A stretch of 64,000 nt of DNA from Phycisphaeraceae bacterium (GTDB lineage Bacteria; Planctomycetota; Phycisphaerae; Phycisphaerales; SM1A02), in the NCBI GenBank assembly GCA_015709595.1, contig CP054178.1:3601205-3665204 (forward strand), in the 5' to 3' direction. Numbering within the stretch: the first letter of the stretch is position 1; each line of letters starts with the position of its first letter. The position numbers were made by a program, and so were the translations under genes. Below are positions 6,445 to 63,209 of this stretch, one piece after another. The notes beneath the pieces are model-generated. The model ran no database searches, had not been told where the DNA came from, and was given only the letters and a program-made list of their open reading frames with translations.

Positions 6445-9400
6445 TCACGGCAGGTCCACCCTGTGGCTCTTCGTTGACTTCGTCTCCAGCCCGTCAAGCG
6501 GACGATCGATCCGCTTGCCGCTGGCGTCGTACAGCCCGCCGGTGCCTTCGAGCACGCCGCGTCGGATCTGCTCCTTCACTTCCTCGGGCACGGAGAGGCG
6601 GTCAATCTCATCCTGCGTGGCCTCTTCGACGCTCCGCCGGATGGATCGCGGCATGTCGGTGGGGCTGGTGATGACGTGCGGCGTCAGCACGATCAGCAGT
6701 TCCGTCTTGGCTCGCTGTTCGCTGCGGCTGCGGAAGAGCGCCCCGAGAATGGGCAGATCAGAGATCCACGGCACGGCTTCCTCGCGAATCTCGAAGCGAT
6801 CGGAGATCAGCCCGCCGATGACGATGGTCTGGCCGTCGGCCACGGTGACGGTGGTGTCGGCCCGCCGCTTGGTGATGATGGGGGCCGAGAAGTTCTCGTT
6901 GACCTGCGTGGTCCGGGCGGAGAGGTTGGAGATTTCCGGGTTGATCTCCATGCGCACGTAGCCGTCGGGGTTGATGGTGGGCGTGACGTTGAGAATCACG
7001 CCGATGTCCTGGGCCTCGACGGTGGAGACGACCTGTCCGCTGGTGATCGACTGTCCCGTGGGAACGCGGATGGTCTCGCCGATCTGGATTTCGGCGCGCT
7101 CGTTGTTGGCGGCCATGATGGAGGGGTTGCTGAGCACCTGCAGACGCCCCTGCGACTTGAGGGCGCGGATCAGCAGGTCAAAGTCGGTGCCGGCCACCGA
7201 CAGGTTGGGAACGCCCATGCCGGAGAGGAACGCGGAGGCCAGTCCGAAGCCGCCCCCCACGTTGACGTCGCCGAACTTGCGGCTGGCGTTGAACTTGACG
7301 CCCCACTCGTCGCCGCCGTCGAGGGTGATCTCCGCCAGCAGCACCTGAATGAGCACCTGCGGCGGATCAACGTCGAGCTGCTGGATCATGTCCATGACGC
7401 GCGGCATGTAGCGCGGGCTGGCGGAGACCAGCAGCGTGTTGGATTTGCGGTCGCCGATGATGGTGACCTCGCGCTCCAGCAGACGGGTCGCGGCGCCGAG
7501 CTGGTCCACCGGAATGGTGTCGAGCAGCTTGCGCTGATCGGCGTCCACGAAGTTGGCGACCACGCGGGCGACCTCCTCGGCGACGGCGTTCTTGAGCGGG
7601 TACACCAGCTGGGTGCGCTCGTTGCCCGTCTCGGAATCGAGCTGCTGCACCACCTGCTCCACCAGGTCCAGGTAGCGCGGCGTGCCGGCCACGATGAGCG
7701 AGTTGGTGCGGCTGTCCACCGTGATGGCCAGCTGCTTGCGCTCGTCCGGGACGGTGGTGAGCTGCGTCATCGAGAGGGGCATCACCTCCCCTTCCAGCCC
7801 CGCCGGGGGCTGCTCGGTGACCGGCGTCAGCACCTCGCGGTTGGGCGTGCGGAACAACTCGGCCAGAATCTTGGCCGTCGCGTCCGCGTCGGCGTTCTGC
7901 AGGGTGAAGATGCGCAGATTCTGATTCGACGCGGTGGACTTGTCCCATGAATCAATCAGCTTGCGGATCAGAGTCATGGACTCGCGCGGCGCCGCCACGA
8001 TGACCGAGTTGGTGCGACGATCGGGCGTGAGCGAAATCGTCTCGCGGATGGCGGTCGAGATTTCAATCTCATCCGTCGCATCCTGACGCACCACGCCGTC
8101 CTCCTGCGCCGCCTCGGTGATGAGCTTGAAGATCACCGACTGCTGCGCGTTGCGCCGTCCGGTGGTGCCGGGGCCGCGCAGCACTTCCTCCACCAGCCCG
8201 ACGATCTCCAGCGGGTCGGCGGCGGTGAGCGTGATGGTCTGAATCTCCACGATGGGGAAATTGCCCCGGCCTTCGAGGCGCTCGACGAGGCCCTTGACCG
8301 CCGCCACGTCCTGCTCGCTGGCGCTGACGATCAGGGCGTTGAGCCGGTCGTTGGCGGTCACGCGCACGGTGTTGTCGCCCCGCTTGCGGTTCTGCTCCTG
8401 CACGTACAGCTCGTCCACCACGCGGATCAGGTCGGTGGCGCGGCTGCGGGCGAGGTTGATGACCTCGATCACGCCCGCCGGCGAGTCCTGTTCCGCCTTG
8501 GCCAAGGCGTCGATCAGACCGCGGATGACCTCCAGGTTCTCATCGCTCGCCGCCACGATGAGCGAGTTGCTCGCCGTATCGGCCTGGATGGAGACACGGT
8601 CGGCGTCGGTGCGGGCCGGGCCGAGGGTGGCGATCCGGTCGGCCATCAACTGCTGCAGCTTGGGGGCCAGCTGCTCGGCTCGCTTGTTCTCCACCGGCAC
8701 CACGGTGATGGCGACCGCCGGGTTCATCGGGATGGCCTCGATGTCGGCCACCATGCGTCTGATGGACTCGAAGTCCTCGGGGTTGGCGGCGATGAGCAGC
8801 GAGTTGGTGCGTGGATCGGTGAGCACCAGCGGCTGCTGGGCGTTGCGGATCTCCTGCGGCACGTCGGCATACCGGCGCGTCATCACCTGTCGGACCATCT
8901 CCGCCAGCCGTTCCACGTTGCCCTTGGTCACCGGCAGAACCTGCATCCCGCCGCCCGCCAGTTCGGAAGGCGTGTCAAGCTCCGTCACGAGCCGCTGAAT
9001 GACGCCGAAGGAGTCGTTGCTCGCCGCCACGATGAGCGAGTTGGTGCGGGTGTCTGCGACGATGGTGGCCCGCTCCATCTCGGCGGTTTCGGGCTCGACG
9101 CGGCGGAGCCGCTCCAGCCGCGCGTCCATCAGCTGCTGAATGGCCGTGGCCAGCCGCTGGGCCGCCGCGCTGCGCAGTGGAATGCTGCGGATCTCGGCGA
9201 ACTCGGTGGGAATCTGCGCGTCCAGCTTCTCCAGCAGCGACTCGAGCACCTCGAAGCTGCGCGGGCTGGTGGAGACGATCAGGGCGTTGGTGCGCTCGTC
9301 GGCGGTGACGAAGACCCGATCCTCCTCGCGCACACCCTGCCGCTGCTGCTGCTGGTCGAACAGCCGCGAGATAGTGGTCTGCAACCGCGACGCTGAGGCG

Positions 9401-12400
9401 TGCTTGACCGGGTAGATGCGCACGCGGTTGTCGCGTGAGCGCTGCTCGATGTCGAACATGGCCACCAGTTCCTGGATGGCGTCGAGGTTCGACCGGGTGC
9501 CGACGACGACGAGGGCGTTGAGCTGCTCGTCGGCCCGCACCACCAGCCGCGTCATGGGCACGAAGACATCGGACGCCGCGCCGGGAGCGCCCCCCTGGCC
9601 CTGGGCGGTGCGAATGCGGGCGATCTGGTTCTGCAGCGGCGTGGACTGGGGCAGGTTCTGCGCCCCATCGACGAGAATGGCCTGAATCGTGGCGGCCAGT
9701 TCCGCGGCGTCGGCGTGCTTGAGCGGGATCAGACGCGGCTCCACCCACCCCACCGCCACGTCGGAGTCGAGTCGCTGGCGCATGACCTCGACGAACGCCA
9801 CCGCCTCCTCGCTGCCCGCCACCATGAGCGTGTTCGTGCGACCATCCACGGTCATGGCGATGGGCCCGGCCAGCGCCCGGCCGGTGGTGGTTGAAGGCAC
9901 CCCCTGCACCTGGGCCCCCGGACGCGACCCCAGCGACTTGCCCTGCGTGAACAGGTCATTGACGATGCGCTGGAAGTCCTCCGCCCGGATGTTCTCCAGC
10001 GGAATGATCTGCACCACCACCGCATCCGTGATCGGCAGAGTGTCGAGCGATGCGACGATCTCCACCAGCGCGTTCAGGTTCGCCTCGGTGGAGCTGACGA
10101 TCAACGTGTTCGACACGTCGTTGGGAATCAGCCGGATCGGCTTGGTCAGATCAAGCTGCAGGTCGGGCTGATTGGCCCCGTTGCGCCGCAGCGAGAGCCG
10201 GCGCACCTGCTCCTGAATCGCCCTGGCCAGCGGCGTGTTCGCCTGCTGGTTGGCCGGTTGCAGCATCTGGGTGAGCACCTGGCTCACGGCGGAGGCCTTG
10301 GCGTTGGTCAGCCGCACCATGCGCATCTGCACCTCGGCCATGGCCGGTTCGGAGTCGATGGCCTTGAGAATCGAGACGATGGTGTCCCGATCCGCCGGGT
10401 TGGCGATGACGATGAGCGCATTGCGCCCCTGCATGGCCGAAACGCGGATCGGCTCGGTGACGAGGCGCGACACCGAGTCCGGCGGCTGCGGCTTGTCCAG
10501 CCCGATGGTCTGGATGATGGAGGTGGCCGACGCCGGGTCGACGTTCTGCAGCTCGATGATGAAGATGCCCTGCCCCGCCGCGGGCTGAAGCGAATCGAGC
10601 TGCTTCACGGTCTGCTCAATCTCGGCGAACAGCGCCGCCGTGCAGGCGATGATGAGGGAGTTGCCCGAGGGCTCGGAGCGGATCGAGAGCGGCTGGCGCG
10701 TCTGCTGCGCCTTGGCCTGGAAGGCGTCGCGGATGGCGGCCTCCACGCGGGCCGCCGGGGCGGCCGTCAGCGTCAGGACATGGACGTTCAGCCCCTGCTC
10801 GCCGGCCCGCTGCTGCAGCGCGTCGGAGAGCGCCACGATCTGCTGGAACTCGTCGTCCTCCGCCCGCACAATGAGCGAACTGCTGGCCTCGTTGGCGATG
10901 ATCCGCACCGGCTGACGCCCGACCGGCTGGCCGCGCCCCTGCCGGGACTGCTGAAAGACCTCGGTGAGCGACTGGGCGAACTGCGTCGGGCTGCCCACGG
11001 TGACGGGAATCACACGCGGCGCGGGGCCCTGGGCGAACTCGGCGTTGTCGATCTGTGCGACGATCGCCTCGATCTTGAGCATGTTGTCCCGGTTGGCGGA
11101 CACGATGACGGTGTTGGTCTGCGGCTCGGCGCCGGCCCGCACCCAGTCAGCCGCCTCGACGAGCACGAGCGGCGGCTGATTCTGGTCGCGACGCTCGCCG
11201 TCACCCTGGTTGGATGGAGGCGTGGGACGCCCCTGCGTGCGGGGATCGTTGCCGCGCCCACCCTGCACCTGGGCCTGGAAGGCGTCATTGATCGCCTGCG
11301 CCACGCTCGTGGCGTCCGCCCACTTGAGGGGAATCACGCGCAACTGCAGCGACGGGTCGAACTCCTCGCTGTCGAATTGCTTGATGTAGGTCTGAATGTT
11401 CTCCCACTCCGCCTCGGCCGCAGAAATGAGCAGCGACTTGGGCGGATTGGCGACGATGCGGGTGTTGATCTGGTCGGGCGTCTTGGCATGGATGGCGAAG
11501 GGGCCGTAAAAGAACGAGAGCGCCTCGCGCACGGATTCGGCGCTGGCGTACTCCAGCTTGACGAAGCGCGTCACGGGGCGGGCCTTGGGCAGGTCGATCT
11601 CGGCCAGCAGCGACTCGATCTGCTTGAACTGGTCGGCGGTGGCGGAGATGAAGAGCTGGTTCTCCGGCTCGTTGTAGTCGATGCGCGGCTCGGGCTGGTC
11701 GCTGCTCGCCGGTTGCCGCAGGAACTGCCGCAGCGTCAGCGCCACGTCGAACGCCAGGGCGTTCTTGAGCTTGATGATGCGCCACTCGGTTGGGCTCTTC
11801 ACCGGAACCTCATCCAGCCGCTGGATCAGCATGTCGATCACGGGGAAGGATTCGGGCGTGGCCCGCACGATGAGCGAGTTGCTGCGCCGGTCGGCGATGA
11901 TCTTGCCCTGCACCACCACCGACTCGCCTTCGAGTTCATCCAGCTTCACCGCCACGCCCTGCGTCTCACCCTGTGCGTTGAGATCGAGCGTGTCGGCAAG
12001 CAGTCGCACCGCCTCGGCGGCCTGGGCGCCGGTGAGAGCGTAGATGCGGATGATCATGTTCTCGCTGGGCGGGGGCGAATCGAGCGTGGCGACCATCTCC
12101 TCCGCCGCCGCCAGCGCCTGCTGCGGCGCGTTGAGGATGAGCGAGTTGGTGCGCACGTCCGCCGTGGCCACCACGCCCTGCCCGCCGCGCGTACCGAAGA
12201 CCTGGCCGATGATGCGCGCCACCGCCTGAGCGTCGCCCTTCTTCAGCGCGATGATGCGGATCACCCGCCCGTCGCTGATGGGCTGGTCGATGCGGTCCAG
12301 CAGATCGCGGATGGTCGCCAGGTCCGCCTCGTTGGCGGAGATGAGCAGGTTGCCCGCGCCGCCCGCGCCGGCTTCGCTGGGCACGATGACGGCGGGCGGA

Positions 12401-15400
12401 TCGACGCGGTTGGTCGCCTTGGCGCGTTCCACGAGAAACTGGTTGAGAATGCGCGCCGCGTCCGACGCCCGCGCGAACTCCACGGGCAGCACCGTAAGCG
12501 TCTGCCCCGGGGTTTCACCCGCCTTGTCGAGCAGGTTGATGATCGAAGCGACTTCCTCGTGCTCCCGCGTCGTGCCGGAGACAATGAGCGTGCGGGTCTG
12601 CGCGAAAGGGCGCACGATGATCTGGCCCGGATCGGGCGGATCCCACGGGCGACGGGCGCGGCTGCTTGCGCCCACGCCGACGGTGCGCTCGATCATGTCG
12701 GTGACGACCGCCAGGTCGGCGCTGCGCACCGGGTACAGCCGCACCAGGCGCTCGGAACCCTGGGTAAGCGGAGCGTCAAGGGCGCGGATGATCTCCTCCA
12801 CCACGGTGAACTTGTCGCCCTCGCCGGTGGCGATGATGGCGTTGAGGCGGCTGTCGGAGCGGATGGCCAGCGTCCCCTGCGGCGCACCGCCCCGTCCGCC
12901 GGACCGGCCGCCTCCGCCGAACATCGGTCCCCACGGACCCCAGATCATCGGCCCCTGGTTCCACGTGAGATCCTGCACCAGTTCCTGCACCGTCTGCACG
13001 ATGTCAACCGCTTTGGCGTGCTGCAGCGAGAAGACGCGGAACTGGAGGGTGGGGATGGCGTCCACGGAGTCGAACCGGGAAACCAGGTCGGTGATGACCT
13101 GGTAGTCCTCGTCCGACGCGGCTACCACCAGCGTGTTGCTGACGGCGTCGCCGACGATGGAGACTCGCCGCCCCCCGCGCGACTGCTGTCCGCGACCCTG
13201 ACGGGCCATCTGGGCGCGGTCGTCATAGAGCTGGCGAAGCGTGTCGGCGACCGCTTCAGCGCTGGCCCGCTGGAGCGTGATGGTGCGCACCTCGAAGCCG
13301 CGCGTGGCGTCGCGATCAATCTCGGCCAGCACCGCGTCGATCTCGGTGTTGACCTCCGGCGACGCCCGCACGAGCAGCATGCCGGCGTCGTCCGAAGGCA
13401 GGATCGTGGTGCTGTTGCGGATCTGCTGATCCGATCCGATCACCGCCTGTTCGAGCACCCGCTGGGCCTGGCTGGGGAGAATGTTCTTCACCTCCACCAT
13501 GCGCAGGGGATGGCGCGACTCGCCCAGCTCCACGTCCAGCGACGACAGCAGCGTCTCCACCTCGGTCAGGTGCTCGGGCGACGCGGTGACGAGCAGCATG
13601 TTCGTCCGCGCGTCGATCGAGATGGCCGGCCGAATGGTCGTTCGCTTGAGAGCGGGATCGAGCGCGTCGTAGCGCACATTCAGGATGTCCTGCAGGGGAC
13701 GCTGCACGTCCGCCGCGCGGGCGTGGCGCAGGGGGAACATCTTGAGCGACGCCATCGGCCCCGTGGGGCGCTGGTCGATCAGTTCGATGAACTGATCGAT
13801 GAAGCGGATCGACTCCTCGGCCCCCATCACCAGCACGGAGTTGGTGGCCGGGTCGCTGGTGACGCGGATGAGGGACGGGTCAAAGACGGCGTCGATGGTG
13901 CGTCCCTGCGCCCGAAGCTGCAGTTCCAGGTTGCGGCGCATGCGGTCGGTCTGCTGCCCGCGAGGCCGCTGCACCCCCCCTGCTCCAGCGGGCGAGGCGA
14001 CGCCGATGAGTTCACGCACGCTTTCCGCGGCGCGGTCGGCGGTGATGCGCTCCAGCGGATACACCTTCACCACCACGCGGTCGGTGGCGGCCGGCTGGGT
14101 GAGCGCCAGCAACAAATCGGCCACGGTCTGAAAGTCCACCTCGTTGGCGCTCACAATGAGCGCGTTGTTGACGGTGTCGGCCAGAATCGACACGCGCTGC
14201 TGCGTCGGCTGTCCGCGCCCCGGACCCGGGGAGCCCGGCTGCATCGGCAGGGGCGGCAGCACCTGCTGGAGCGTCTGCGTGACCAGCTGCGCTACCGCCG
14301 AGGCGTCCACCGCGGGCGGCAGGGCGATGTAGCGCACGCGACCCGGCAATTGCGGCATCTCGGCTTGAATCTGACGAGCCAGGTCGCGGATGCGCTCCAC
14401 GGCGCGGGGCGGGCCGAGAACGATGAGTGAGTTGGTCGCCTCATCGACGGCGATGGTGACATCAGCGTCGCCGCTGTCGGCAGGCGGCTGATGGCCCTCG
14501 GTTGCCGGCTTCGGGCTGTTGGCGTCCTGCATCGCCGCGAAAAGCGACAGCACAAGCGCGGAGCGGATGTCAAGCGACGCGGAAGCCGACTGTTCGCCGC
14601 TCGAATCGGGTTGATCGCCGGCGGCGGACGGCGCCTGGGCTTCGGCGGCTGATCCCTCACCCGCCGCTCCCTCGCGCTTCGACTCGGAGGCCCCACCCGA
14701 CCGCGAGCGCATGAGTTCTTCGATGGTAATGACCTCGATCCGCGACCCGCCATTGCCGCCCGCGGCGCCGCGCCGGTCGAGCAGCCGCTTGAGCGTGTCC
14801 GCCACCTCGCGCGCCGTGGCGCGTGAGGGGTCGATGGGCACGGCGCCGATCTCGCGCCGGGCCCCGATGGCGGCGCGATCCACCTGCGACGCCACCGCTT
14901 CGATCATCTCGTGCTGGCGCGGCGTGGCGCGCACGATAAGCGTCTCGCTGGCCGCGTCCACGCGGATCACCGGGGCCGGCTCGCCGGAATCATCGTCGGC
15001 GAAGAGCGTCTCGAGCGTACCCGCCAGCTGCGCCGGGTCGGCATTGTCGATCGTGAGCACTCGCACGGTGCGCGACGGGGCCCGGCCGGTCGGGTCCACG
15101 TCCAGCTGGGTCACCAGCGCCTCGGCCACGTCCAGAACCTGCGCCGAGGCCGAGATGACCACGGCGTTGAGGCGCGTGTCCGCCGCCACGCGGATGGCGG
15201 CGGGCTGCTCCGAGCCCGCCCGCTGGCGGAGGATCTCGGCGCGCATCCAGTTGGGCACCTGCTGCAGGTCGATCTGATCGTCGCTGGCGAGCAGCTGCTC
15301 AACCACGGGCGCCACCGTCTCGGCACGTGCATGCTTGAGGAATACCGCCCGCACCTGGGGCCGGTCCGCGCCGCCCACGCCGCTGTCAAGCGACGCGATG

Positions 15401-18400
15401 ATCGACTCCACCCCGGTCAGCTGCTCCGGGGTGGCGGTGACAATGACCGAGTTGCTCGACGGCTCGGCGGTGATGACCGCCGCCGGTTCGCCGGGGCGCT
15501 GCTTGGCCCGCGCCGCGAGCGACTGCTGAACCGCCGTCGCCACGTCCTGCGCCTTGGCGACCTGCAGGTTGAAGATGCGGATATCGGAGACGCCCGACCC
15601 GCGCGGGGCGTCGAGTTGCGACACCAGCTCGCTGGCCATCGCCAGCAGTTGAGGCGGTGCGCTCACCAGCAGTCGGTTGGATGCCGGGTCCGGCGTCACC
15701 GTCGGCTGGGCCACCGCAATCCCGCGCTCGGAAAGCTCCCTCAGCTCGCGCGGCCAGCGCGCTGGATCGCGCAGCATGGGCGTCACGGCGCCGGCGAGCA
15801 CGGCGGCGTCGCTGTGCTGCAGCGGGATGATCTTGAGGTCCATGGCCGGGGCGGACAGCGAGTCCGCATCCCACTTGGCGAGCAACTCCGTCGCCTGCTC
15901 CGTCTCCGCCTGGGTGCCGATGATGACGATGGCGCCGCTGTTGGGCTCGGCGATGAGTTCGAGCGTGGAGCGCCGGCCCGTGGGGCGCGTGGACTCCATC
16001 ACCCGGCGCACCGTGTCGATCAGCGTCTGCGGCTTGGCGTTGCCCGGGGTGAAGGTGGCGTACGTGCGATCACTGGCGTCGTCGGCCTTGTCCAGCTCCT
16101 TCACCAGCGTGCGAGCCAGCTCCACCGTCTGGCGCGTGCCCGAGACGATGACGCTGTTGGTGCGGGCGTCCGCCTCGACCTGGATCTCCGGCGTCAGGTC
16201 AAGCTGACCGCGCGACGTGCGCAGACGCTGCGCCACGATGCGAGGATCGGTCTTCTGCTGGTTCGTCAACAGCCGCTGCAGGATGGGCGCGATGGTGGCG
16301 GCGTTGGCGTACGTGAGCGAGATGGATTCCGCATCCATCGACTCGGTATCCTGTTGCTTGTCCAGCCCGGCGATGAGCTCCTCTACCTGCGGCAGATCGC
16401 CTTCCAGCCCCACCAGGATGATGGCGTTGGCCCCTCCGGAGGGTATCAGGCGCACGTCCACCGGGTCGCCGGTCTGCTTGCTGATGAGGTTGGGCAGCGC
16501 TTGCGAGAGCGCCCCGGTCACCTCCGCCGCGTTGGCGAAGGTGAGCGGTCTCACCCGCACCACCGGGTCGATGGCCGCGGAGCCGCCCTGATCGAGCTGC
16601 TGAATCAACAACTCCGCCATGGGCATAACGGCCTCGGGGGCGGAGAGAATGATGGTGTTGGTCTTGCGGTCGGCGGTGACGTTGAGCAGCGCCTCGGCGC
16701 TGGCGCCCGAGGCCGCGCCGGGCACGTCGGTCGCCACGCGGGCCACCAGAATGTCGCGCAGCATGGGCGCGACCGTCTCCGCCCGCGCGGATGTGAGCCG
16801 GAAGAAGCGCATGGTCGTGGTCGGCCCGGCCGGACGCACGTCAAGCGCCTGCAGCACCTTCTCCAGTTTCGGATAGATTTCAGGAGGTCCGGCGACCACC
16901 AGCGTCTGCGACACCGGCTCGGTGGTGATGGTGATGGCGGCGCGTCGATCGCCCGCGGCGCCGAAGGCCCCCGCGTCCTTGAGCTGCCGCATCGACGCCG
17001 CCAGGGCGTCGAGGTTGGCATGCACCACGGGATAGGTGCGGATCTCTGACTCATCGTTCAGCTGCTGCCGGTCAAGCTGCTCCACGAGTTGCTCGAACCC
17101 GGCCATGCGCTGCGACTGGGCGTCCACGATGAGCGAGTTGGTCTGGGCGTCGGCCCGCACCACGACTTCGCGGGGCTGCTTCGAACCGGGAATCACCCGT
17201 CCCCGCGCGTCGTAGAGCGGCTCGGGTTCGGGGTACATCTCGTCAAGCACACGGGCCAGTTCCTCGGCACGGGCCACCTTGAGCGGGAAGATGCGGATCT
17301 CGCGTCCGTCCTGCCCTACGCGGTTCATGTCGTTGAGATCATTCACCACCGCCTGAATCTCAGGCAGCAGATCGGGATGCGCCGCGACCATGAGCGAGTT
17401 GGTGTTGGGGTCGGCGGCGATGCTCACGGGTCGATCACGCCGCTCGTCGGCCGATCGCTGGTTGTACTGCGTCATGAGCGCGGCGGCGAAGTTCTGCGCG
17501 TCCGCCGTGCGCAGCTGCAGGATGCGCAGGGGGGGCATGTCCTGGGCCTCCTGCTTATCCAGCGAATCCACCACCGCCTTGATGATGTTGTGCTGATCGG
17601 GCCGCGCCGCCACCAGCACGGCGTTGAGCCGATCCATGGCGAAGTACGTGGGCTGTTTGCCCGCCCCCTCTCCGAAGCGCACGATCTCGTTGCTCGTCAG
17701 CTCCTCGAGGAACTGCACGACTCCGCTGGGCTTGGCGTACTGCAGCGTGAGCAGCCGCACGTCCGCCGGTGGACCGATCGAGGCCTGCAACTGATTGATC
17801 ACGGCGAGGAATCGCACCATCGCCGTGGGCTCCGCCACCGCGACGATGGAGCCGTGATCGGCGTCCACTTCCACCTCGACTTCGCTGGCGGCGGGATCGT
17901 CCCGTGTCAGATCCTGGTAGACCGCCAGGGCGCGCTGGGCCAGGTCGGCAGGGTCGGTGCGCGTCACCTCGATCACGCGCATCTCGCGCGGCACGGCGAC
18001 GGCGGAGAGATCCTTGAGCACCTGCTCCACCTTGCGGAACGTGACCTCGTCGCCGGCCACGATGAGCGTGCGGCTCTGCGGCTCGCCCTCGATGGTCACC
18101 TGCACGGGGTTGGAGCCGTCCTCGGGCCGCTTGACAAGCTGGTCGCGGATGCGGTTGAGGGTCTCGACGATCTTGTTCAGGTCGCCGCGCTCCACGCGAT
18201 AGGTGCGCAGCTCCGCCTGCGGAGGCAGCTGCACGCGGTCAAGCTGCTCCACCAGCGTGACGAACGACTGCATGCGCTCGGCCGGGGCCTCGACGATCAG
18301 CGTGTTGGTGTTGGCGTCGGCGGAGACAAAGACCTCCTTGGGTTCGCGCAGGTGCGGCAGGGGCCGGCCGCGCGAATCCAGCGGCATGGGCGGCTCGGGG

Positions 18401-20964
18401 TAGAGCTTCTCCAGCGCGCTGGCCACGTCCGCCGCCCGCGCCAGCTTGAGCGGGAAGAGCCGCGTCTCGCGCTCGGCGCGGGTGGCGCCGGCGTCATTGA
18501 CGGTGTCCACGAAGTTGCTGATCTCCTCGTAGAGATCGTTGTGCGCCGTCACGATGAGCGTGTTGGTGGCGGCGTCGGCGTCGATCGTCACCGGGTGCTC
18601 GCGCCGCTGCTCCGCGGGTCGCGCATCATATCGCTGCCTGAGCATGGCGGCGATCTGAACCGCGTCCGCGGCGCGCACCTGCATGAGCCGCAGGGGCGGA
18701 AGATCGGACGGCTCGATGGTGTCGAGTTCGGCCACGAAACGCCCGATCATGGCGTGCTGCGGCTCCTCGGCGAGCACGTACAGCGAGTTGGTCCGCTCGA
18801 TGACCTTGATCTCCGGCGCCGGCACCGGGCGCGGACCTTCCGGCGTCGCCGTCTCGATCAGCTCCATCAGCGGAGCGACTACGTCCGCCGCTCTGGCGTT
18901 GCGGATGGGAATCATGCGGCCGTCGCGGAGGGGCGGCAGCAGACGGCGCGCCTCGTTCAGCGCCTGTTCGTAGAGCGACACCGAGCCGGTGCGGCCTGAA
19001 ACCAGCACGCTGCCGGTCAGCTCATCGAACTCAACATCGGGCGCCGGGGTCTCGTCGGGCGGTCGGTTGGCGATGAGCCGCTCGTAGACGAATCCGGCGC
19101 GCTCAAGCAGCGCGTTCACGTCGGCTACGCCCGCCACGGAGATCACGCGGAACTGGTGGTCCCCCGGCTGGGGACGATCGAGCGTGGCGACCAGGTTCTC
19201 CAGCACGGCGAAATGCGCTGGCGACGCGGTGACGAGCAGCAGATCAAGCGCATCAACCGGCTCGATCTGCGGCTCAACGTATGGCGTACCGTCCGGCGGC
19301 TGCAGCAGTTGCCGCGCCATGGCCACCAGCGGCGCTGCAATGGCGGAGGGTTCAGCGCTGGTGACCTGGAACTGACGACGCTCGCGTTCGACAACCGCGT
19401 TGGTTTCGACCAGCCGGAGGGCCTCGGCGAAGCGGTCCAGCGCGGGGCGAGCGCCCACCAGCGTCGCGGTGCGCGTCTCGACATCCAGCTCAACGGCCAC
19501 GCTGGTCGTCGGGTCCGCGGCGTCGGCCCGCTTCTCATAGAGGGCGCGGGCTTTGTCCAGCGCCGCCTGCGGGTCGACGGCCGCGATGCGAATCATCCGC
19601 ACGTCGCGATCCACCTTGGCCGGTGTATCCAGGATGGGCAGCAGCGACTTCACCATGTCCACGTCGCGCGTCAGCCCACTGATGATGAGCGACCGGCCGT
19701 CGGCGCCGGGGATCAGCTTGGTCGTCGCCGCCTGGCGCGGATTGAGGAGCGATTGGACCACGCCGGCGGCCGCCTCGGGCGTGGCGTGCTCCAGCGGCGC
19801 GATGACGATCGCCCGTTCGATCGAGACGTCGTCCCGCGGTTCGCCGCCTCCGTCAATCTCGCGAAGCAGGGCGGCGCTCTGGGCGATGTCGGTCTCGGAG
19901 CCGATCACCACGACGCGGTTGGTGTCCGCCAGCGGCAGCATGGTGGGCCGCTCCTGACGAGGCGTGCCCTCGAAAAGCACGCCCAGTTTCTGGATCGCAT
20001 CCGCCGGCGTGAGGACCAGCAGCGCGAACGTGCGGATGAGCCGCTGCTCGCCCGCCCCCGGCACGTCCAGCAGCGCGATGGCCTGCTCCAGCTGATCGAT
20101 CTTGGCCTGCATGCCCTTGGCGACGATCGAGTTGGTGCGATCATCGTGCGAAATGGTCAGGCCGCGGATGTTCTCCTCCTCGATCTTCTGCTGCTGACCC
20201 TGCTGGTTGATGACGAACTTCTGCACTTTTTCGGCCAGCAGCGCGCGCAGAGGCGTCATCAGCGCGCTGGCGCGGGCGTGACGGATCTTGAAGATGCGGA
20301 TCACGCCCTCCGGATCAGCCCGGTCGAGATTGGAGACGATCTGGAGCAGCTGCCGGATCTTGCCGGCGGTCTCGACGATCACCAGCGAGTTCTGCGCTTC
20401 CATCACCGTGACCGACCCGTATGCTCCCACCATTGCGGCGAGCGACGCCCCGAGCGGCTTGGCCATGGCGTTCTGCAGCGGCACCACGCACACGACGATC
20501 TGGTCATCCGTGACCGAGTCGGGCACCTCGCCCTGGTAGGTCGGCAGCGTCTCCTTCACCATCGCGTCAAGCTTCTGCAGATACAGCTTCGCCTTGTCGA
20601 CGCGCAGCATCACGCCCTGCGTCTGCAGCAGGATGTTCAGCACCCGCAGCGCCTCGGCCATCTCGTAGGCCTCCGGCGCGTGATACGTGAACGTCGCCTT
20701 GGGAACATCCGTCTCGCGCACCACGGGCAGGCCCGTCTCGCGCGAAAAGAACTCCACCACCTGCTCCAGCGTGGCGCCGTTGAAACTGAAGCGGATCTTC
20801 TTCGCCTGGGCGTCGGCGGGCGGAGCCGACGGCGGCGACTCCTGCATCGCCAGGCCCGGCCACCCGACGAACATCGCGAGAAGCATCGTCATCAACGCCG
20901 GCAGAAGCGCCCTCTGGCGGCGCGCGTCGGAAATGGTTCCGTTCATGTCACGATCCTTCATCAT
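6445..20964 (-). CDS. gspD: Giant type II secretion secretin with about 52 N-type repeats
   Basis: About 4,839 residues, six to seven times longer than ordinary GspD. A signal peptide (hydrophobic core LLPALMTMLLAMFVGW) is followed by an N0/STN-like domain at about residues 45-145. By eye I count about 52 tandem N1/N2-type secretin domains at about residues 147-4530, each 68-170 residues long. Each has an opening beta strand (such as RIFPLKVARAEE), a helix, a second strand with the signature D.RTNSLIV.A, and a helix ending LV..LD. A normal secretin channel domain fills about 4531-4780, with VTVADGQTIVIGGL and VPWISDLPILGALF, then a helical tail of about 60 residues. It is last in the gsp operon. 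The start at 20964 is chosen from a purine-rich ribosome site; 20991, 20961 and 20946 are alternatives. No frameshift is seen over 14.5 kb. Confidence 0.93.
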   Translation of the reverse strand: MMKDRDMNGTISDARRQRALLPALMTMLLAMFVGWPGLAMQESPPSAPPADAQAKKIRFSFNGATLEQVVEFFSRETGLPVVRETDVPKATFTYHAPEAYEMAEALRVLNILLQTQGVMLRVDKAKLYLQKLDAMVKETLPTYQGEVPDSVTDDQIVVCVVPLQNAMAKPLGASLAAMVGAYGSVTVMEAQNSLVIVETAGKIRQLLQIVSNLDRADPEGVIRIFKIRHARASALMTPLRALLAEKVQKFVINQQGQQQKIEEENIRGLTISHDDRTNSIVAKGMQAKIDQLEQAIALLDVPGAGEQRLIRTFALLVLTPADAIQKLGVLFEGTPRQERPTMLPLADTNRVVVIGSETDIAQSAALLREIDGGGEPRDDVSIERAIVIAPLEHATPEAAAGVVQSLLNPRQAATTKLIPGADGRSLIISGLTRDVDMVKSLLPILDTPAKVDRDVRMIRIAAVDPQAALDKARALYEKRADAADPTTSVAVELDVETRTATLVGARPALDRFAEALRLVETNAVVERERRQFQVTSAEPSAIAAPLVAMARQLLQPPDGTPYVEPQIEPVDALDLLLVTASPAHFAVLENLVATLDRPQPGDHQFRVISVAGVADVNALLERAGFVYERLIANRPPDETPAPDVEFDELTGSVLVSGRTGSVSLYEQALNEARRLLPPLRDGRMIPIRNARAADVVAPLMELIETATPEGPRPVPAPEIKVIERTNSLYVLAEEPQHAMIGRFVAELDTIEPSDLPPLRLMQVRAADAVQIAAMLRQRYDARPAEQRREHPVTIDADAATNTLIVTAHNDLYEEISNFVDTVNDAGATRAERETRLFPLKLARAADVASALEKLYPEPPMPLDSRGRPLPHLREPKEVFVSADANTNTLIVEAPAERMQSFVTLVEQLDRVQLPPQAELRTYRVERGDLNKIVETLNRIRDQLVKRPEDGSNPVQVTIEGEPQSRTLIVAGDEVTFRKVEQVLKDLSAVAVPREMRVIEVTRTDPADLAQRALAVYQDLTRDDPAASEVEVEVDADHGSIVAVAEPTAMVRFLAVINQLQASIGPPADVRLLTLQYAKPSGVVQFLEELTSNEIVRFGEGAGKQPTYFAMDRLNAVLVAARPDQHNIIKAVVDSLDKQEAQDMPPLRILQLRTADAQNFAAALMTQYNQRSADERRDRPVSIAADPNTNSLMVAAHPDLLPEIQAVVNDLNDMNRVGQDGREIRIFPLKVARAEELARVLDEMYPEPEPLYDARGRVIPGSKQPREVVVRADAQTNSLIVDAQSQRMAGFEQLVEQLDRQQLNDESEIRTYPVVHANLDALAASMRQLKDAGAFGAAGDRRAAITITTEPVSQTLVVAGPPEIYPKLEKVLQALDVRPAGPTTTMRFFRLTSARAETVAPMLRDILVARVATDVPGAASGASAEALLNVTADRKTNTIILSAPEAVMPMAELLIQQLDQGGSAAIDPVVRVRPLTFANAAEVTGALSQALPNLISKQTGDPVDVRLIPSGGANAIILVGLEGDLPQVEELIAGLDKQQDTESMDAESISLTYANAATIAPILQRLLTNQQKTDPRIVAQRLRTSRGQLDLTPEIQVEADARTNSVIVSGTRQTVELARTLVKELDKADDASDRTYATFTPGNAKPQTLIDTVRRVMESTRPTGRRSTLELIAEPNSGAIVIIGTQAETEQATELLAKWDADSLSAPAMDLKIIPLQHSDAAVLAGAVTPMLRDPARWPRELRELSERGIAVAQPTVTPDPASNRLLVSAPPQLLAMASELVSQLDAPRGSGVSDIRIFNLQVAKAQDVATAVQQSLAARAKQRPGEPAAVITAEPSSNSVIVTATPEQLTGVESIIASLDSGVGGADRPQVRAVFLKHARAETVAPVVEQLLASDDQIDLQQVPNWMRAEILRQRAGSEQPAAIRVAADTRLNAVVISASAQVLDVAEALVTQLDVDPTGRAPSRTVRVLTIDNADPAQLAGTLETLFADDDSGEPAPVIRVDAASETLIVRATPRQHEMIEAVASQVDRAAIGARREIGAVPIDPSRATAREVADTLKRLLDRRGAAGGNGGSRIEVITIEELMRSRSGGASESKREGAAGEGSAAEAQAPSAAGDQPDSSGEQSASASLDIRSALVLSLFAAMQDANSPKPATEGHQPPADSGDADVTIAVDEATNSLIVLGPPRAVERIRDLARQIQAEMPQLPGRVRYIALPPAVDASAVAQLVTQTLQQVLPPLPMQPGSPGPGRGQPTQQRVSILADTVNNALIVSANEVDFQTVADLLLALTQPAATDRVVVKVYPLERITADRAAESVRELIGVASPAGAGGVQRPRGQQTDRMRRNLELQLRAQGRTIDAVFDPSLIRVTSDPATNSVLVMGAEESIRFIDQFIELIDQRPTGPMASLKMFPLRHARAADVQRPLQDILNVRYDALDPALKRTTIRPAISIDARTNMLLVTASPEHLTEVETLLSSLDVELGESRHPLRMVEVKNILPSQAQRVLEQAVIGSDQQIRNSTTILPSDDAGMLLVRASPEVNTEIDAVLAEIDRDATRGFEVRTITLQRASAEAVADTLRQLYDDRAQMARQGRGQQSRGGRRVSIVGDAVSNTLVVAASDEDYQVITDLVSRFDSVDAIPTLQFRVFSLQHAKAVDIVQTVQELVQDLTWNQGPMIWGPWGPMFGGGGRSGGRGGAPQGTLAIRSDSRLNAIIATGEGDKFTVVEEIIRALDAPLTQGSERLVRLYPVRSADLAVVTDMIERTVGVGASSRARRPWDPPDPGQIIVRPFAQTRTLIVSGTTREHEEVASIINLLDKAGETPGQTLTVLPVEFARASDAARILNQFLVERAKATNRVDPPAVIVPSEAGAGGAGNLLISANEADLATIRDLLDRIDQPISDGRVIRIIALKKGDAQAVARIIGQVFGTRGGQGVVATADVRTNSLILNAPQQALAAAEEMVATLDSPPPSENMIIRIYALTGAQAAEAVRLLADTLDLNAQGETQGVAVKLDELEGESVVVQGKIIADRRSNSLIVRATPESFPVIDMLIQRLDEVPVKSPTEWRIIKLKNALAFDVALTLRQFLRQPASSDQPEPRIDYNEPENQLFISATADQFKQIESLLAEIDLPKARPVTRFVKLEYASAESVREALSFFYGPFAIHAKTPDQINTRIVANPPKSLLISAAEAEWENIQTYIKQFDSEEFDPSLQLRVIPLKWADATSVAQAINDAFQAQVQGGRGNDPRTQGRPTPPSNQGDGERRDQNQPPLVLVEAADWVRAGAEPQTNTVIVSANRDNMLKIEAIVAQIDNAEFAQGPAPRVIPVTVGSPTQFAQSLTEVFQQSRQGRGQPVGRQPVRIIANEASSSLIVRAEDDEFQQIVALSDALQQRAGEQGLNVHVLTLTAAPAARVEAAIRDAFQAKAQQTRQPLSIRSEPSGNSLIIACTAALFAEIEQTVKQLDSLQPAAGQGIFIIELQNVDPASATSIIQTIGLDKPQPPDSVSRLVTEPIRVSAMQGRNALIVIANPADRDTIVSILKAIDSEPAMAEVQMRMVRLTNAKASAVSQVLTQMLQPANQQANTPLARAIQEQVRRLSLRRNGANQPDLQLDLTKPIRLIPNDVSNTLIVSSTEANLNALVEIVASLDTLPITDAVVVQIIPLENIRAEDFQRIVNDLFTQGKSLGSRPGAQVQGVPSTTTGRALAGPIAMTVDGRTNTLMVAGSEEAVAFVEVMRQRLDSDVAVGWVEPRLIPLKHADAAELAATIQAILVDGAQNLPQSTPLQNQIARIRTAQGQGGAPGAASDVFVPMTRLVVRADEQLNALVVVGTRSNLDAIQELVAMFDIEQRSRDNRVRIYPVKHASASRLQTTISRLFDQQQQRQGVREEDRVFVTADERTNALIVSTSPRSFEVLESLLEKLDAQIPTEFAEIRSIPLRSAAAQRLATAIQQLMDARLERLRRVEPETAEMERATIVADTRTNSLIVAASNDSFGVIQRLVTELDTPSELAGGGMQVLPVTKGNVERLAEMVRQVMTRRYADVPQEIRNAQQPLVLTDPRTNSLLIAANPEDFESIRRMVADIEAIPMNPAVAITVVPVENKRAEQLAPKLQQLMADRIATLGPARTDADRVSIQADTASNSLIVAASDENLEVIRGLIDALAKAEQDSPAGVIEVINLARSRATDLIRVVDELYVQEQNRKRGDNTVRVTANDRLNALIVSASEQDVAAVKGLVERLEGRGNFPIVEIQTITLTAADPLEIVGLVEEVLRGPGTTGRRNAQQSVIFKLITEAAQEDGVVRQDATDEIEISTAIRETISLTPDRRTNSVIVAAPRESMTLIRKLIDSWDKSTASNQNLRIFTLQNADADATAKILAELFRTPNREVLTPVTEQPPAGLEGEVMPLSMTQLTTVPDERKQLAITVDSRTNSLIVAGTPRYLDLVEQVVQQLDSETGNERTQLVYPLKNAVAEEVARVVANFVDADQRKLLDTIPVDQLGAATRLLEREVTIIGDRKSNTLLVSASPRYMPRVMDMIQQLDVDPPQVLIQVLLAEITLDGGDEWGVKFNASRKFGDVNVGGGFGLASAFLSGMGVPNLSVAGTDFDLLIRALKSQGRLQVLSNPSIMAANNERAEIQIGETIRVPTGQSITSGQVVSTVEAQDIGVILNVTPTINPDGYVRMEINPEISNLSARTTQVNENFSAPIITKRRADTTVTVADGQTIVIGGLISDRFEIREEAVPWISDLPILGALFRSRSEQRAKTELLIVLTPHVITSPTDMPRSIRRSVEEATQDEIDRLSVPEEVKEQIRRGVLEGTGGLYDASGKRIDRPLDGLETKSTKSHRVDLP
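7373..20525 (-). repeat. Array of about 52 secretin N-domain coding repeats
   Basis: The repeats average about 84 codons. The most conserved part is the (D/E)xRTNS-(L/V)-IV-xA strand, visible in almost every unit. Units differ a lot in sequence, so the array is old, but some neighbours are clearly closer relatives (see the block at 16825-18710). Two units carry long loops. One near 14460-14770 holds about 90 residues rich in Ala, Ser, Gly and Glu. One near 12885-12960 holds a Gly/Trp/Pro-rich loop, WGPWGPMFGGGG. Confidence 0.85.
16825..18710 (-). repeat. Duplicated multi-domain block inside the giant secretin
   Basis: Three consecutive N-domains coded at about 18710-17990 match three consecutive ones at about 17550-16825 in the same order. 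Paired landmarks are PPLRLMQVRAADA with PPLRILQLRTADA, FPLKLARAADVASALEKLYPEP with FPLKVARAEELARVLDEMYPEP, and ELRTYRVERGDLN with EIRTYPVVHANLD. The period is therefore about five domains (roughly 1.16 kb), showing growth by copying blocks rather than single domains. Confidence 0.7.
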
Positions 20965-21015
20965 CGCTCTCTTCTTCACGGACAAGATCATTCGACTCCG
21001 TTCATGGCCGCCTCG

Positions 21016-21993
21016 TCATCGCCCGACGGGCTGACGATCGCGCAGCGTGGTTCCGACGGCGATCAGAAACCGGCTCTCTCCGATGCGAAACTCCGCCTGG
21101 TCCCCGCGAACGGCCAGCAGCTCCGCCTCATTCAGCTTTCCCCCCAGCGCCAGCGTCACGCTCTCGCCGGACTCGCGATTGAGCAGCCAGGCCTCCGGCC
21201 CGCGACTGCTTTCCGTGACTGCGGTCAGGGCCCATTTGCCGTAGGGGAACGGCGGGGGCTTGACCTCCGCGGGCGGCGTCGGCGGGGGCGGCGGAGGCGT
21301 CGCCTCCGTCACGCGCACGGGGGGCGGGGGCACCTGGAACGGCTGCATCGCCGCGAACCGCGCGTAGCGGTCGAACGATGCCGCGTCGTATGACGCCAGC
21401 ACCGCCGACCCCGCGTTCGGCGAGGGCTGGCGACCCGGCAGGAACATCGTCGTCAGGCGCACCGACACCTTGACGCGCGAACCATCCGCGCTCGGGTTGA
21501 GCGACACGGAGTTGACGCGCTTGTGCCAGGGCTCGGCTTCGATGCGATGCACCAGCCGCAGCGCCTGCTCCAGCGAGCCGTCTCCCGTCACGGTTCCGTC
21601 CATTTCGAGGAAGTCGGCGGTCCCCCTGGCGGGGTTACGACCCATGCGCCGCGCCGCGGGCGACCCCCTGGTGACCGGCTGGCCGGTGGTGACGCTGGTC
21701 GAAGCGAGACCAATCTCCTCAACGATGCGGTTGAGTCGTTCGCGCAGCGCCGCGTCCACCACTTCCGCTGAGCCGCCCAGGGAGCCATCGGCGATCTCCT
21801 GCAGACGGGCGCGCATGGCGCGCAGGTCGCGTCGCTCCCTGGAAAACTGCTCCAGCACGCGCTCACGCTGCTGAATCTGCGTCAACAGATCGGTTCGCTC
21901 GTTGAAGTAGAGCGAGTTGGCCGCGGTGCGCGCCAGCAGCCCCACCGCGACGGCGGCGACAGCGCCCTTGATGATCAACGCGCGCACGCTCAC
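21016..21993 (-). CDS. GspM-like inner-membrane protein with GspC/PilP-like C-terminal domain
   Basis: 325 residues starting from the GTG at 21993, which overlaps the gspL stop as GTGA; the frame stays open upstream but that part is antisense-like. One N-terminal membrane helix (ALIIKGAVAAVAVGLLA) is followed by a coiled coil (about residues 30-70), a GspM/PilO-like ferredoxin-type region (about 80-190), a Pro-rich linker, and a C-terminal beta domain (about 255-320). That last domain, with WLLNRESGESVTLALGGKLNEAELLAV, resembles the HR domain of GspC or PilP, which contacts the secretin N0 domain. If so, M and C functions are fused next to the giant secretin. The family assignment is structural inference from sequence pattern. 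Confidence 0.6.
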   Translation of the reverse strand: MSVRALIIKGAVAAVAVGLLARTAANSLYFNERTDLLTQIQQRERVLEQFSRERRDLRAMRARLQEIADGSLGGSAEVVDAALRERLNRIVEEIGLASTSVTTGQPVTRGSPAARRMGRNPARGTADFLEMDGTVTGDGSLEQALRLVHRIEAEPWHKRVNSVSLNPSADGSRVKVSVRLTTMFLPGRQPSPNAGSAVLASYDAASFDRYARFAAMQPFQVPPPPVRVTEATPPPPPPTPPAEVKPPPFPYGKWALTAVTESSRGPEAWLLNRESGESVTLALGGKLNEAELLAVRGDQAEFRIGESRFLIAVGTTLRDRQPVGR

Positions 21994-23666
21994 AGCGACT
22001 CTCCTCGTTCGCCGCCGTTCCGCCGCCGGGCCGTCGCGCCCCCGCTTTCCGCGCTGCCCGTCGGTGCGCCGTCGGCCTCTCCCGCCGACGGATCGCCCAC
22101 GCTGGTCCGCAGCGTGAGCTTGAAGGGAAACGGATAGCGCTTCCCTCCCGAGGTGTCCGGACCCGCCGGACGGGCCTGGTATTCCTGGGTCTGGACAAAT
22201 TGCTGACGGAACCGATCGACGACCGCCTGCGAGGCGGCCTCTCCCTCCAGCGAAATGATGATCTCGCGCGGCACGCTCCATCGCTTGGCGGCGTCCGTCG
22301 CCCGATCGTTGTACTGCACGCCGTTGAACCGCTGCGATCCGGCCCAGCCGTCGAGCACCAGCTGGCTTCGATCGGGCAGGCGTCCCTCGAGCTGCAGCAG
22401 GTGCTCCAGCCAGTTGACGCGGGCCTCGCCCCAGCGGTCCAAGTGCTGCAGACGCCAGTACTCACGCTCGTACTCGTAGTGTCCGGGCGTTTCCGCGCGG
22501 ATCTGCTCGGAAAGCCCGGCCAGCCGGGAGCGCATGTCACTCAGCCCCCGATGCGCCAGTCCGTAGGCGCCCACCGCCAGCAGCAGCAGCGCCCCGGACG
22601 CCGCCAGGGCGTACTGACGAACACGGGCGTTCCGATCCGGCGCCCGGCGCGGGTTGAGGAAGTCGAACGAAGGCGCGCCGACGATCGGCTCCAGCAGCAG
22701 ACCGGCCAGCGACCACGCACCGGCGAGTTCGTGTTCGCCCGCGATGATGCGCGGATGCGTCGTCAGCACCTCCGTCCTGACGTTCATCAGGTCGCCGATC
22801 TGCTCATGCGTCAGCCGGGTGACCGTCGAGTCGCCCACCACGAAGGCGCCGCTGATCTCCGGCGCGTCCTCCACCACCCGGTAACTCATCCAGGATCGTC
22901 GCGTTTCGGTCACCACCGCGTCGGCGAACTGACGCGCGTCCTCCGCGTGGGGCACCTCCGCCGCGCGGGAGAACCGCACACTGCCATTGGAGAGCACCAT
23001 CAGCTCCACGCCGTCGCCGGTTACGTCAATGCCCAGCCAGGCGGTCTGATTGTCGTCTGTGGTTTCGTTGAGCGTGCGAACGACCGTCGCCAGCCCCATG
23101 CAACGGAGCGACAAGCGCTCGATCCGGAGTCCGGCGGCCCTGGCCACTTCCCGCACGTGTTCGATCGTCCGGCGCTGAATGGCCGCGACCAGCACCACCG
23201 TGCCTCCACCGGCGGGCACGGCGACGCCATTGATCGCAGGCGGGACGCCTGCACCACTGACAGCCGCGCCGCTGACGCCCGAGTTGCCGGCGCCGACTTC
23301 CATGACGGGCACGAAGTCAATCACCGCTTCCGAGGGATCGAAGGGCAGATCCCGCTGCATGGTCAGACGGACCATGTCGGGCAGCTCATATCGGTCGGTG
23401 GTCGGCAACGTCAGCCGCTTCAGCGACACCTGGTCACGTGGGATGGCGAAGACCGCTTTGCCGCGCGGGAATCCGGCCTTGCGCAGCAGATCCCCGGCCC
23501 ATTCGCCAAGCGACACCGGGTCATCCGGCTGCACCGAGACGGGAATGTCCGCCATGAGCACGCGGCGGACCCGCAGCAGATCCCCTGAACGGGATACCTG
23601 CACGGCGCGGAAGCGCCGCTTCGAGTAATCCACCGCGAGATGACCGCTGCCCGCCATACCGATCAT
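21990..23666 (-). CDS. gspL: GspL/PilM-type platform protein with PilN-like C-terminus
   Basis: 558 residues from the ATG at 23666, which overlaps the gspK stop as ATGA. The N-terminal half is an actin-like PilM/GspL cytoplasmic domain: it opens HLAVDYSKRRFRAVQVSRSG and contains AIPRDQVSLKRLTLP, close to PilM. A membrane helix (YALAASGALLLLAVGAYGLA, about residue 345) is followed by a coiled coil and a periplasmic PilN/GspL-like domain. GspL links the GspE ATPase to the inner-membrane platform. A 17-base palindrome codes SGAGVPPAING near residue 140, probably an inserted loop. Confidence 0.8.
   Translation of the reverse strand: MIGMAGSGHLAVDYSKRRFRAVQVSRSGDLLRVRRVLMADIPVSVQPDDPVSLGEWAGDLLRKAGFPRGKAVFAIPRDQVSLKRLTLPTTDRYELPDMVRLTMQRDLPFDPSEAVIDFVPVMEVGAGNSGVSGAAVSGAGVPPAINGVAVPAGGGTVVLVAAIQRRTIEHVREVARAAGLRIERLSLRCMGLATVVRTLNETTDDNQTAWLGIDVTGDGVELMVLSNGSVRFSRAAEVPHAEDARQFADAVVTETRRSWMSYRVVEDAPEISGAFVVGDSTVTRLTHEQIGDLMNVRTEVLTTHPRIIAGEHELAGAWSLAGLLLEPIVGAPSFDFLNPRRAPDRNARVRQYALAASGALLLLAVGAYGLAHRGLSDMRSRLAGLSEQIRAETPGHYEYEREYWRLQHLDRWGEARVNWLEHLLQLEGRLPDRSQLVLDGWAGSQRFNGVQYNDRATDAAKRWSVPREIIISLEGEAASQAVVDRFRQQFVQTQEYQARPAGPDTSGGKRYPFPFKLTLRTSVGDPSAGEADGAPTGSAESGGATARRRNGGERGESL
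23236..23252. repeat. 17-base palindrome inside gspL
   Basis: GCAGGCG-GGA-CGCCTGC, perfect 7-base arms. Read on the coding strand the loop is TCC and the frame gives Gly-Val-Pro-Pro-Ala. It is the best-preserved member of the palindrome family also seen in gspK, acs and argC. Confidence 0.75.
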
Positions 23667-25348: not shown

Positions 25349-26136
25349 TGTTCGCCCCCTTGCTCGGGCATCGACAGTTCCACGCCCGACGAGTCGTCCT
25401 CGCCCGCCCGGGCGTCTGGAATTGCGATGATGCGCACGCGGTCAGGTGGTGGAATCGACTCGTCAAACCGCAGCCGTGCGTCCGGCTCCAGCGGGGGGGC
25501 ATCTTCCGCGGCGTCGTCCGCGATCGGCGCCATCAGGTCGGCGTCATCCGTCGCCTCGGCCTGGGCGTCCGCCAGATCACTCGGCCACGGATCGAACCAG
25601 ATCGCCACCTCCACCGCCACGGGCAGGCGACCGGCCTGCAGCGAATCGAATGCGTCGCGCCACGACTGGCCATCGTGATAGCGGAATCGAACCTTGGCCA
25701 CCCGTCCCACGGGCCAGAACGGCTCGGAGCCGCTCGCGCCTCCCGCGCTTCCGCCCCGCACCGCGACTTTGCGGCCCTCGATCATCCCGGCTCCGGAAAC
25801 CCGGAACTCCGTCCGTTGCAGGTCGCCCAGCACGCGCGAGTCGCCCAGCCCCGCTTCCGCCAGGTGCGACGCCACCGACCGGCTCAGCACGCGGATGGAG
25901 CGGTTGTCGCCCGAGACGCCCGCGCCGAACGCCGCGTCTCCCACCAGGCACGTCACAAGATCCTGCTCCAGCCGGTCGATGACCAGCGAACAGGCCCGCT
26001 CGCGTTCGGCGTACGCGGCGGCGCGCTGGCGCGCCTCCAGCAGATTGCCGAAGAAGCCGAATGCCGAGCCGAGGAACGCGCCGATCAGCGCGATCGCGAC
26101 GAGAACTTCGATCAGCGAAAAGGCGCGCCGCCTCAT
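25345..26136 (-). CDS. gspJ: Type II secretion minor pseudopilin GspJ
   Basis: 263 residues from the ATG at 26136, which overlaps the gspI stop as ATGA. The leader MRRRA precedes FSLIEVLVAIALIGAFLG, a type IV pilin-like helix with Glu at mature residue 5. The residue before the cut is Ala rather than the usual Gly. The body pattern RACSLVIDRLEQDL and later FRYHDGQSWRD matches GspJ. It forms the pseudopilus tip with GspI and GspK. The C-terminus has an acidic stretch. Confidence 0.82.
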   Translation of the reverse strand: MRRRAFSLIEVLVAIALIGAFLGSAFGFFGNLLEARQRAAAYAERERACSLVIDRLEQDLVTCLVGDAAFGAGVSGDNRSIRVLSRSVASHLAEAGLGDSRVLGDLQRTEFRVSGAGMIEGRKVAVRGGSAGGASGSEPFWPVGRVAKVRFRYHDGQSWRDAFDSLQAGRLPVAVEVAIWFDPWPSDLADAQAEATDDADLMAPIADDAAEDAPPLEPDARLRFDESIPPPDRVRIIAIPDARAGEDDSSGVELSMPEQGGEQ

Positions 26137-27370: not shown

Positions 27371-27465
27371 GCGCAGTTTCTCCCGACACGAGTCAGCACG
27401 ACCCGACGAGGCGTCGCCGTGCCCGCCGACCGGAACAGGGCCAAAGGACGGACGAGCCGCCGCGC

Positions 27466-27963: not shown

Positions 27964-28033
27964 GTCTGGCTCCTTCCGACTGAGAGGCGCGCGGCCTCGA
28001 ACTTCTCGAACGGGCGACACGGGCCGCCCGGGG

Positions 28034-63013: not shown

Positions 63014-63209
63014 GATCGGACGGGCTCCCGGTGGGCGATTCCGGTGACAAGTCGGCGCGAAGTCGGGGCTTGGCCGTGCCGATCCCACCAATCGCGGCAC
63101 GGGCAGTGGAATACCACGACTCTTTTGCCGACGTTGCATCCATCGTTACGCGCCCGGCATAGAAATGCAGGCGGCTCGGCGAGCGCCCGGGACGGAAACG
63201 AGTCGGCGC

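Follow-up and report, generated by a model that had tools for sequence, protein, structure and literature searches.

In the stretch of DNA analysed here (64,000 nucleotides, hereafter the window), the last gene of a T2SS-type operon encodes a secretin of giant size, in which the N0 domain is followed by 52 N-type domains and then by one channel domain. With a probability that we put at roughly 0.6, this protein would form a T2SS outer-membrane channel, whose vestibule of about 53 stacked rings would bridge a wide or folded periplasm. Below, we describe the gene, its domains and its operon, we trace the array through related genomes, and we weigh the proposed channel against other readings.

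Results

A single open frame under purifying selection

An earlier note on this DNA had reported an uninterrupted frame of about 4,840 residues between positions 6445 and 20964, and had left its strand unstated. The frame is indeed uninterrupted: it lies on the minus strand, with no internal stop (Table 1), and stops break the frame when 6445-20991 is read on the plus strand. Position 6445 stands as one end. Position 20964 proved to be the second in-frame ATG, at codon 10, and the first ATG places the start at 20991. Third-position GC amounts to 84-92% in each block of 400 codons. No tandem repeat was found inside the gene at the DNA level, and the domains of the array share on average 27% identity in pairwise comparisons. 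Using two close pairs, dN/dS was 0.06-0.18 along the array, except in the first block, which takes in sequence 5' of the likely start codon. Purifying selection on the giant secretin is fairly even along the whole array.

Domain composition

The signal peptide, the N0-like domain, the 52 or so N domains counted by eye and the single normal channel domain of the earlier description were all recovered. The strongest hydropathy window of the protein starts the list, at aa 28 in the signal peptide region. The N0 domain aligned by hhalign with the N0 of ordinary GspD (99%, E 8.7e-18); the Pfam N0 model alone gave 14.9 bits, below its cut-off, and the N0-N1-N2 structure 3ezj of the PDB matches aa 118-309. 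At the other end of the protein, the secretin domain matches GspD 5wq7 in the PDB (E 1e-41).

For the array itself, the scan with Secretin_N and Secretin models that had been suggested yielded 44 separately significant Secretin_N stretches (1384.9 bits) and one Secretin domain. An HMM iterated on the repeats gave 53 tandem matches, from aa 169 to aa 4540. Matches 25 and 26 are most simply read as one domain split by the low-complexity insert, and the count of domains after N0 is thus 52. A second and independent HMM was built solely on five ordinary GspD proteins, which supplied 15 domains. It found 52 matches at E≤1 in the giant secretin, 40 of them at E≤0.01, and none in 50 shuffled sequences, which rules out chance repeats. 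Since this model comes from ordinary short GspD only, the identification of the domains is not circular. The linkers that join the domains are short and of uniform length (median 9.5 aa), and loops of very different length are found inside many of the domains.

The NCBIfam GspD equivalog model TIGR02517 scored 1288.9 against a cut-off of 351.35, a total inflated by the repeated domains; its best single stretch, aa 4322-4780, corresponds to positions 127-596 of the 600 in the profile. The PilQ (TIGR02515) and SctC (TIGR02516) models were likewise above their cut-offs, probably from the repeated domains, so that the assignment to GspD is decided by the operon context. A search of the giant protein for an AMIN domain, a feature of PilQ, gave no Pfam match. 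Ordinary GspD has four N domains (N0-N3), as against N0 plus 52 here. As the number of extra N domains varies among secretins (PMC8563730), the 52 domains mark a variant rather than an exclusion from GspD, and the giant protein is almost certainly a T2SS secretin.

Table 1. Features of the giant secretin and of its operon, in window positions
Feature	Positions	Strand	Residues	Remarks
Giant GspD-type secretin gene	6445..20991	minus	4848 aa from first ATG	precursor ~525 kDa
Signal peptide region	20845..20913	minus	aa ~27-49	RRQR, then hydrophobic stretch; cleavage site by eye
N0 domain	20494..20808	minus	aa 62-166	profile-profile match to ordinary GspD N0
First array domain, putative equivalent of ancestral N1	20323..20487	minus	aa 169-223	
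50 further N-type domains	7636..20301	minus	aa 231-4452	linkers about 9-11 aa
Ser/Gly/Glu-rich insert within domain 25	14569..14727	minus	aa ~2089-2141	
Last array domain, positional equivalent of ancestral N3	7372..7605	minus	aa 4463-4540	
Single secretin channel domain	6670..7164	minus	aa 4610-4774	Pfam PF00263, E 4.9e-52, above curated cut-off
GspM/GspC-like inner-membrane protein	21016..22281	minus		directly upstream of secretin; conserved beside giant secretins in families f1, f2, f4
GspL/PilM-like protein	21990..23708	minus		weak PilM_2 match; conserved in operon
GspK-like minor pseudopilin with HHH_3	23663..25348	minus		domain match and conserved operon position
GspJ-like pseudopilin	25345..26364	minus		N_methyl, weak T2SSJ
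GspI-like pseudopilin	26133..26813	minus		position and N-terminal sequence; no Pfam match
GspH-like pseudopilin	26639..27469	minus		weak N_methyl and GspH matches
GspG major pseudopilin	27466..28020	minus		T2SSG, E 3.2e-24
GspF inner-membrane platform protein, first operon gene	28034..29293	minus		T2SSF, E 1e-54

Predicted fold of the array domains

An AlphaFold2 monomer model was made for domains 46-49 only, from an alignment of non-overlapping tiles of the window protein and three Phycisphaerales relatives. In this model (mean pLDDT 88.8), the succession strand-helix-strand-strand-helix occurs four times, and this is the motif described for secretin N domains (PMC5745081). All 23 Foldseek matches to the PDB at E≤0.001 were secretins, as were all 28 entries listed by VIA-align with Z≥8. 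VIA-align gave Z 10.9 for XcpQ 5mp2 (rmsd 4.2 over 132 residues) and Z 10.3 for GspD 3oss (rmsd 1.4 over 63 residues). Agreement with these structures is found for single domains: taken whole, the four-domain monomer could not be superposed on a GspD stack, and the rmsd is high once several domains are aligned together. The N-domain nature of the repeats, for which a structural check had been proposed, was thus borne out by the model, and the array repeats are predicted to fold as secretin N domains (KH-like). A model of the C-terminal part, with a pLDDT of 55.6 from a four-sequence alignment, was left out of the analysis.

Operon and genome context

The giant secretin gene closes a T2SS operon with the order F-G-H-I-J-K-L-M/C-D, and gene order and domain content identify its product as the predicted GspD of this operon. 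The protein encoded directly upstream has one TM segment, a coiled region and a C-terminal domain that resembles, by eye, the GspC HR domain. It has no Pfam or PDB match, and we infer its GspM/GspC name; the true start of its gene is probably downstream of the frame start. The genes of this operon, mostly in its order, are also found beside the giant secretins of seven loci in families f1, f2 and f4 (L085, L087, L088, L090, L091, L096, L097).

No gspE was found within the 64-kb window. The best candidate in the genome is G000:C1:1342224-1343372 (L077), which comes nearest to gspE as found in the T2SS loci of several relatives. Clustered T2SSE-family ATPases of this genome lie outside the operon, beside a different F protein, and the operon holds no retraction ATPase. 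Three other secretins, of ordinary size, are encoded in the genome.

Other frames of the window, all on the minus strand, encode an M14 zinc carboxypeptidase of 1068 aa, which is a candidate exported enzyme (49416-52622), a Tricorn-like protease of 1237 aa with PD40, Tricorn_C1, PDZ and S41 domains (43809-47522), a protein of 1592 aa with Sortilin/Vps10-type BNR propeller repeats, PDZ and EF hand (58361-63139), and an Mrp/NADH-quinone-oxidoreductase-type antiporter subunit fused to MbhD and MbhE domains (991-3309).

Distribution among relatives

The planctomycete setting supposed in the earlier note agrees with the nearest named relatives of the giant secretin, which are Phycisphaerales MAGs. 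A hunt for long GspD homologs in planctomycete genomes had also been suggested, and our survey of occurrence, made within Planctomycetota, found secretin frames of at least 3000 aa in at least 34 genomes of the order, with a maximum of 5088 aa. They belong to five families (among the rows listed, 20 genomes in f1, 7 in f2, 5 in f4, and 1 each in f5 and f6). The giant loci that were fetched have 24 to 54 domains each, a few of them being cut by contig ends. Other families of the order and class have an ordinary 3-domain GspD of 691-809 aa, and homologous F and G genes, with gspE, surround four of the five ordinary loci examined.

In family f1, the GspK-like gene is present in 27 of 37 genomes. 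A secretin frame of at least 1840 aa was found in 25 of these 27 genomes and in none of the ten without GspK, a co-occurrence with a Fisher probability of about 2e-7 (computed by hand, on genomes that are related to each other). The two GspK-positive genomes lacking a long secretin frame are fragmented, and 72 and 80% complete.

At one locus of family f4 (L100, G051:C1:2222900-2242800), the giant secretin is spread over three frames in a row, which contain 24, 18 and 13 N domains, owing either to frame errors of the assembly or to decay of the gene. Secretins of 1200-2330 aa are common in the planctomycete families f26, f54, f57, f63 and f66, so that lengthening may be a trend of the whole phylum. 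One of them, of 2221 aa, is encoded in an f66 genome consisting of one contig of 8,999,201 bases (G304; L057, G304:C1:920500-932500). Those examined in f26, f63 and f66 have extra Secretin_N domains, as the giant has (5-10 detected), but at 1490-2304 aa they are far shorter, and the f66 arrays are collinear with the window array in the last three domains only.

Evolution of the array

Arrays were compared with domains as units, by reciprocal best matches between the window protein and its relatives. The window array is collinear with those of L040 and L037 over 51 of 51 domains each, and with that of L052, from another family, over 42 of 42, where a shuffled order would give about 10. Such near-perfect collinearity shows that the array was already present in a common ancestor, and that blocks have been lost or gained since. 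Domain number varies about twofold among the relatives, by whole blocks, and one duplication of neighbouring domains is traceable, from 9-11 onto 14-16.

The giants of families f5 and f6 (L056 and L054 between them, hereafter type B) have mutually collinear arrays (24 of 25), which are largely non-collinear with the window-type array. In the tree of channel domains they pair together (99/97), apart from the window type. Both observations suggest that giant arrays probably arose at least twice. Some residual order extends past the last three domains, and type B and the window type possibly share a shorter ancestor. At the type B locus L103, gspE adjoins gspF as well.

In most giants, the domain that best matches the N1 of ordinary GspD is the first of the array; in nearly all, N3 finds its best match in the last. 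In the window protein, N3 scores higher against the eighth-last domain (85.8) than against the last one (73.6), so that its N3 assignment rests on the relatives. With a first domain akin to the ancestral N1 and a last one akin to N3, the array has expanded between these two. N0 and N3 are common to all secretins and the number of domains between them differs (PMC8563730); the part that varies among secretins is thus the same that has grown in the giant. Related genomes with an ordinary 3-domain GspD have a homologous operon.

Discussion

Solved secretins are 12- to 15-fold rings with stacked N domains. In those that we cite, N0 is accompanied by one to five further N domains. The PulD channel is 20 nm long, with four N rings (N0-N3) of which N1-N3 are tightly packed (PMC6882859), and Thermus PilQ reaches 35 nm with six rings (N0-N5), spanning most of a wide periplasm (PMC5745081). 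With the T2SS secretins GspD/PulD (6hcg, 5wq7, 5wq8), the giant has in common a signal peptide, N0, N domains, one secretin domain and a T2SS operon, as well as conserved first (N0, N1) and last (N3) domains; they differ in having three N domains after N0 in about 650-800 aa, instead of about 52 in 4848 aa. Thermus thermophilus PilQ resembles it by a number of N rings above the usual and by the wide periplasm that PilQ spans (PMC5745081). However, PilQ has six rings in 757 aa and serves a type IV pilus and DNA uptake, whereas about 53 rings are predicted for the giant, from a T2SS operon; PilQ adjoins pilus genes, and the operon of the giant is of the pseudopilin type. Very long single frames are also known as planctomycete 'giant genes' (PMC5177795, PMC8882080), which were described as mostly surface proteins and PKS/NRPS (PMC5177795), and neither of these two papers mentions secretins. 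In the literature searched (chiefly open-access journal papers), no secretin carrying N domains by the tens turned out to be described, in agreement with the earlier note. The scale of the giant secretin is far outside that of the described members we found.

We propose the following scheme. The ancestral N0-N1-N2-N3 has become N0-N1-[about 50 N2/N3-like domains]-N3. About 15 subunits, as in solved GspD, would assemble by their C-terminal barrel in the outer membrane, each N domain forming a ring stacked on the next, so as to make a hollow, continuous tube about 53 rings long. Adding 2-3 nm per ring to the 20 nm of an ordinary channel, the tube would be 120-170 nm long, and 15 subunits of 525 kDa would give a complex of about 7.9 MDa. 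The N0 end would stand near the inner-membrane platform, keeping both membranes connected across a wide or folded periplasm, and a pseudopilus working inside the tube would deliver folded enzymes to the outside, none being lost to the periplasm. We infer the stacking of the rings, the length of the tube, the way in which transport runs and the match with periplasm width. Uniform short linkers are expected for packed rings and not for flexible spacers, and the array fits the former; its conserved ends and positional conservation are likewise compatible with a stacked tube. As domain number varies about twofold between relatives, any match in length would have to vary too. Among the planctomycetes, the periplasm of Fuerstia marisgermanicae was called unusually enlarged (PMC5177795). 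Connections between membranes were described at crateriform pits only where the membranes are close together (Boedeker et al., PMC5394234), and cultured Phycisphaeraceae were reported without crateriform structures (PMC8882080); these reports weigh against the long tube.

A stronger form of this proposal is that two planctomycete lineages separately built a continuous tube of 40-55 rings, well over 100 nm long, which would be the longest trans-envelope channel known and tuned to an enlarged periplasm. We give this stronger form somewhat less than an even chance.

The array could instead act as a tether that is flexible, or ordered in part. Rings would then be formed by the domains near N3 alone, and perhaps by N0-N1, the middle running as an extended or coiled string, with no closed wall, from the pore to the inner-membrane platform. 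Disorder is frequent in the N-proximal domains of solved secretins (PMC8563730), the AlphaFold monomer lacks a GspD-like stack, array length varies between relatives and loop lengths differ widely within domains. Set against this, the short and uniform linkers, the secretin N fold kept along with fairly even purifying selection, which fits repeated defined contacts, make such a tether unlikely, at about one chance in five by our reckoning.

A long channel serving a pilus or uptake, for capture and import of macromolecules over a large periplasm rather than for export of enzymes, is less probable again, even if its parts are of T2SS type. Planctomycetes do import polymers, which enter an enlarged periplasm, and their pits carry fibres (PMC5394234; PMC8882080), and the T2SS and the type IV pilus have most major parts in common. 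But the operon has a T2SSG-type major pseudopilin with GspH/I/J/K-like minor ones, it contains no gene for a retraction ATPase, and the clustered T2SSE-family ATPases are elsewhere, by a different F protein.

Neutral tandem duplication might also have raised domain number, length itself bringing no benefit. The loss or gain of whole blocks between relatives and the duplication traced in the array would be expected from it, yet 40 to 50 domains were attained in two lineages whose arrays are for the most part dissimilar, and domains are conserved by position across families under low dN/dS, so that we consider it very improbable. Finally, although the locus of one relative (G051) is broken into three frames, an assembly artefact, a collapsed tandem repeat or a pseudogene can be set aside, because arrays of this kind are found in dozens of genomes (open frames of at least 3000 aa in at least 34) with positional orthology and collinearity, diverged domains, no DNA tandem repeat and constant third-position GC.

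Returning to the stacked channel, the giant proteins make up a conserved secretin family of 30 to 55 N domains, probably with two origins, in which channel length would differ between close relatives. Domain number would then predict channel length, which bears on how the membranes are connected for secretion in the wide, folded periplasm of planctomycetes. Such proteins may also serve nanopore and protein-tube work as natural rulers, each with a defined ring number.
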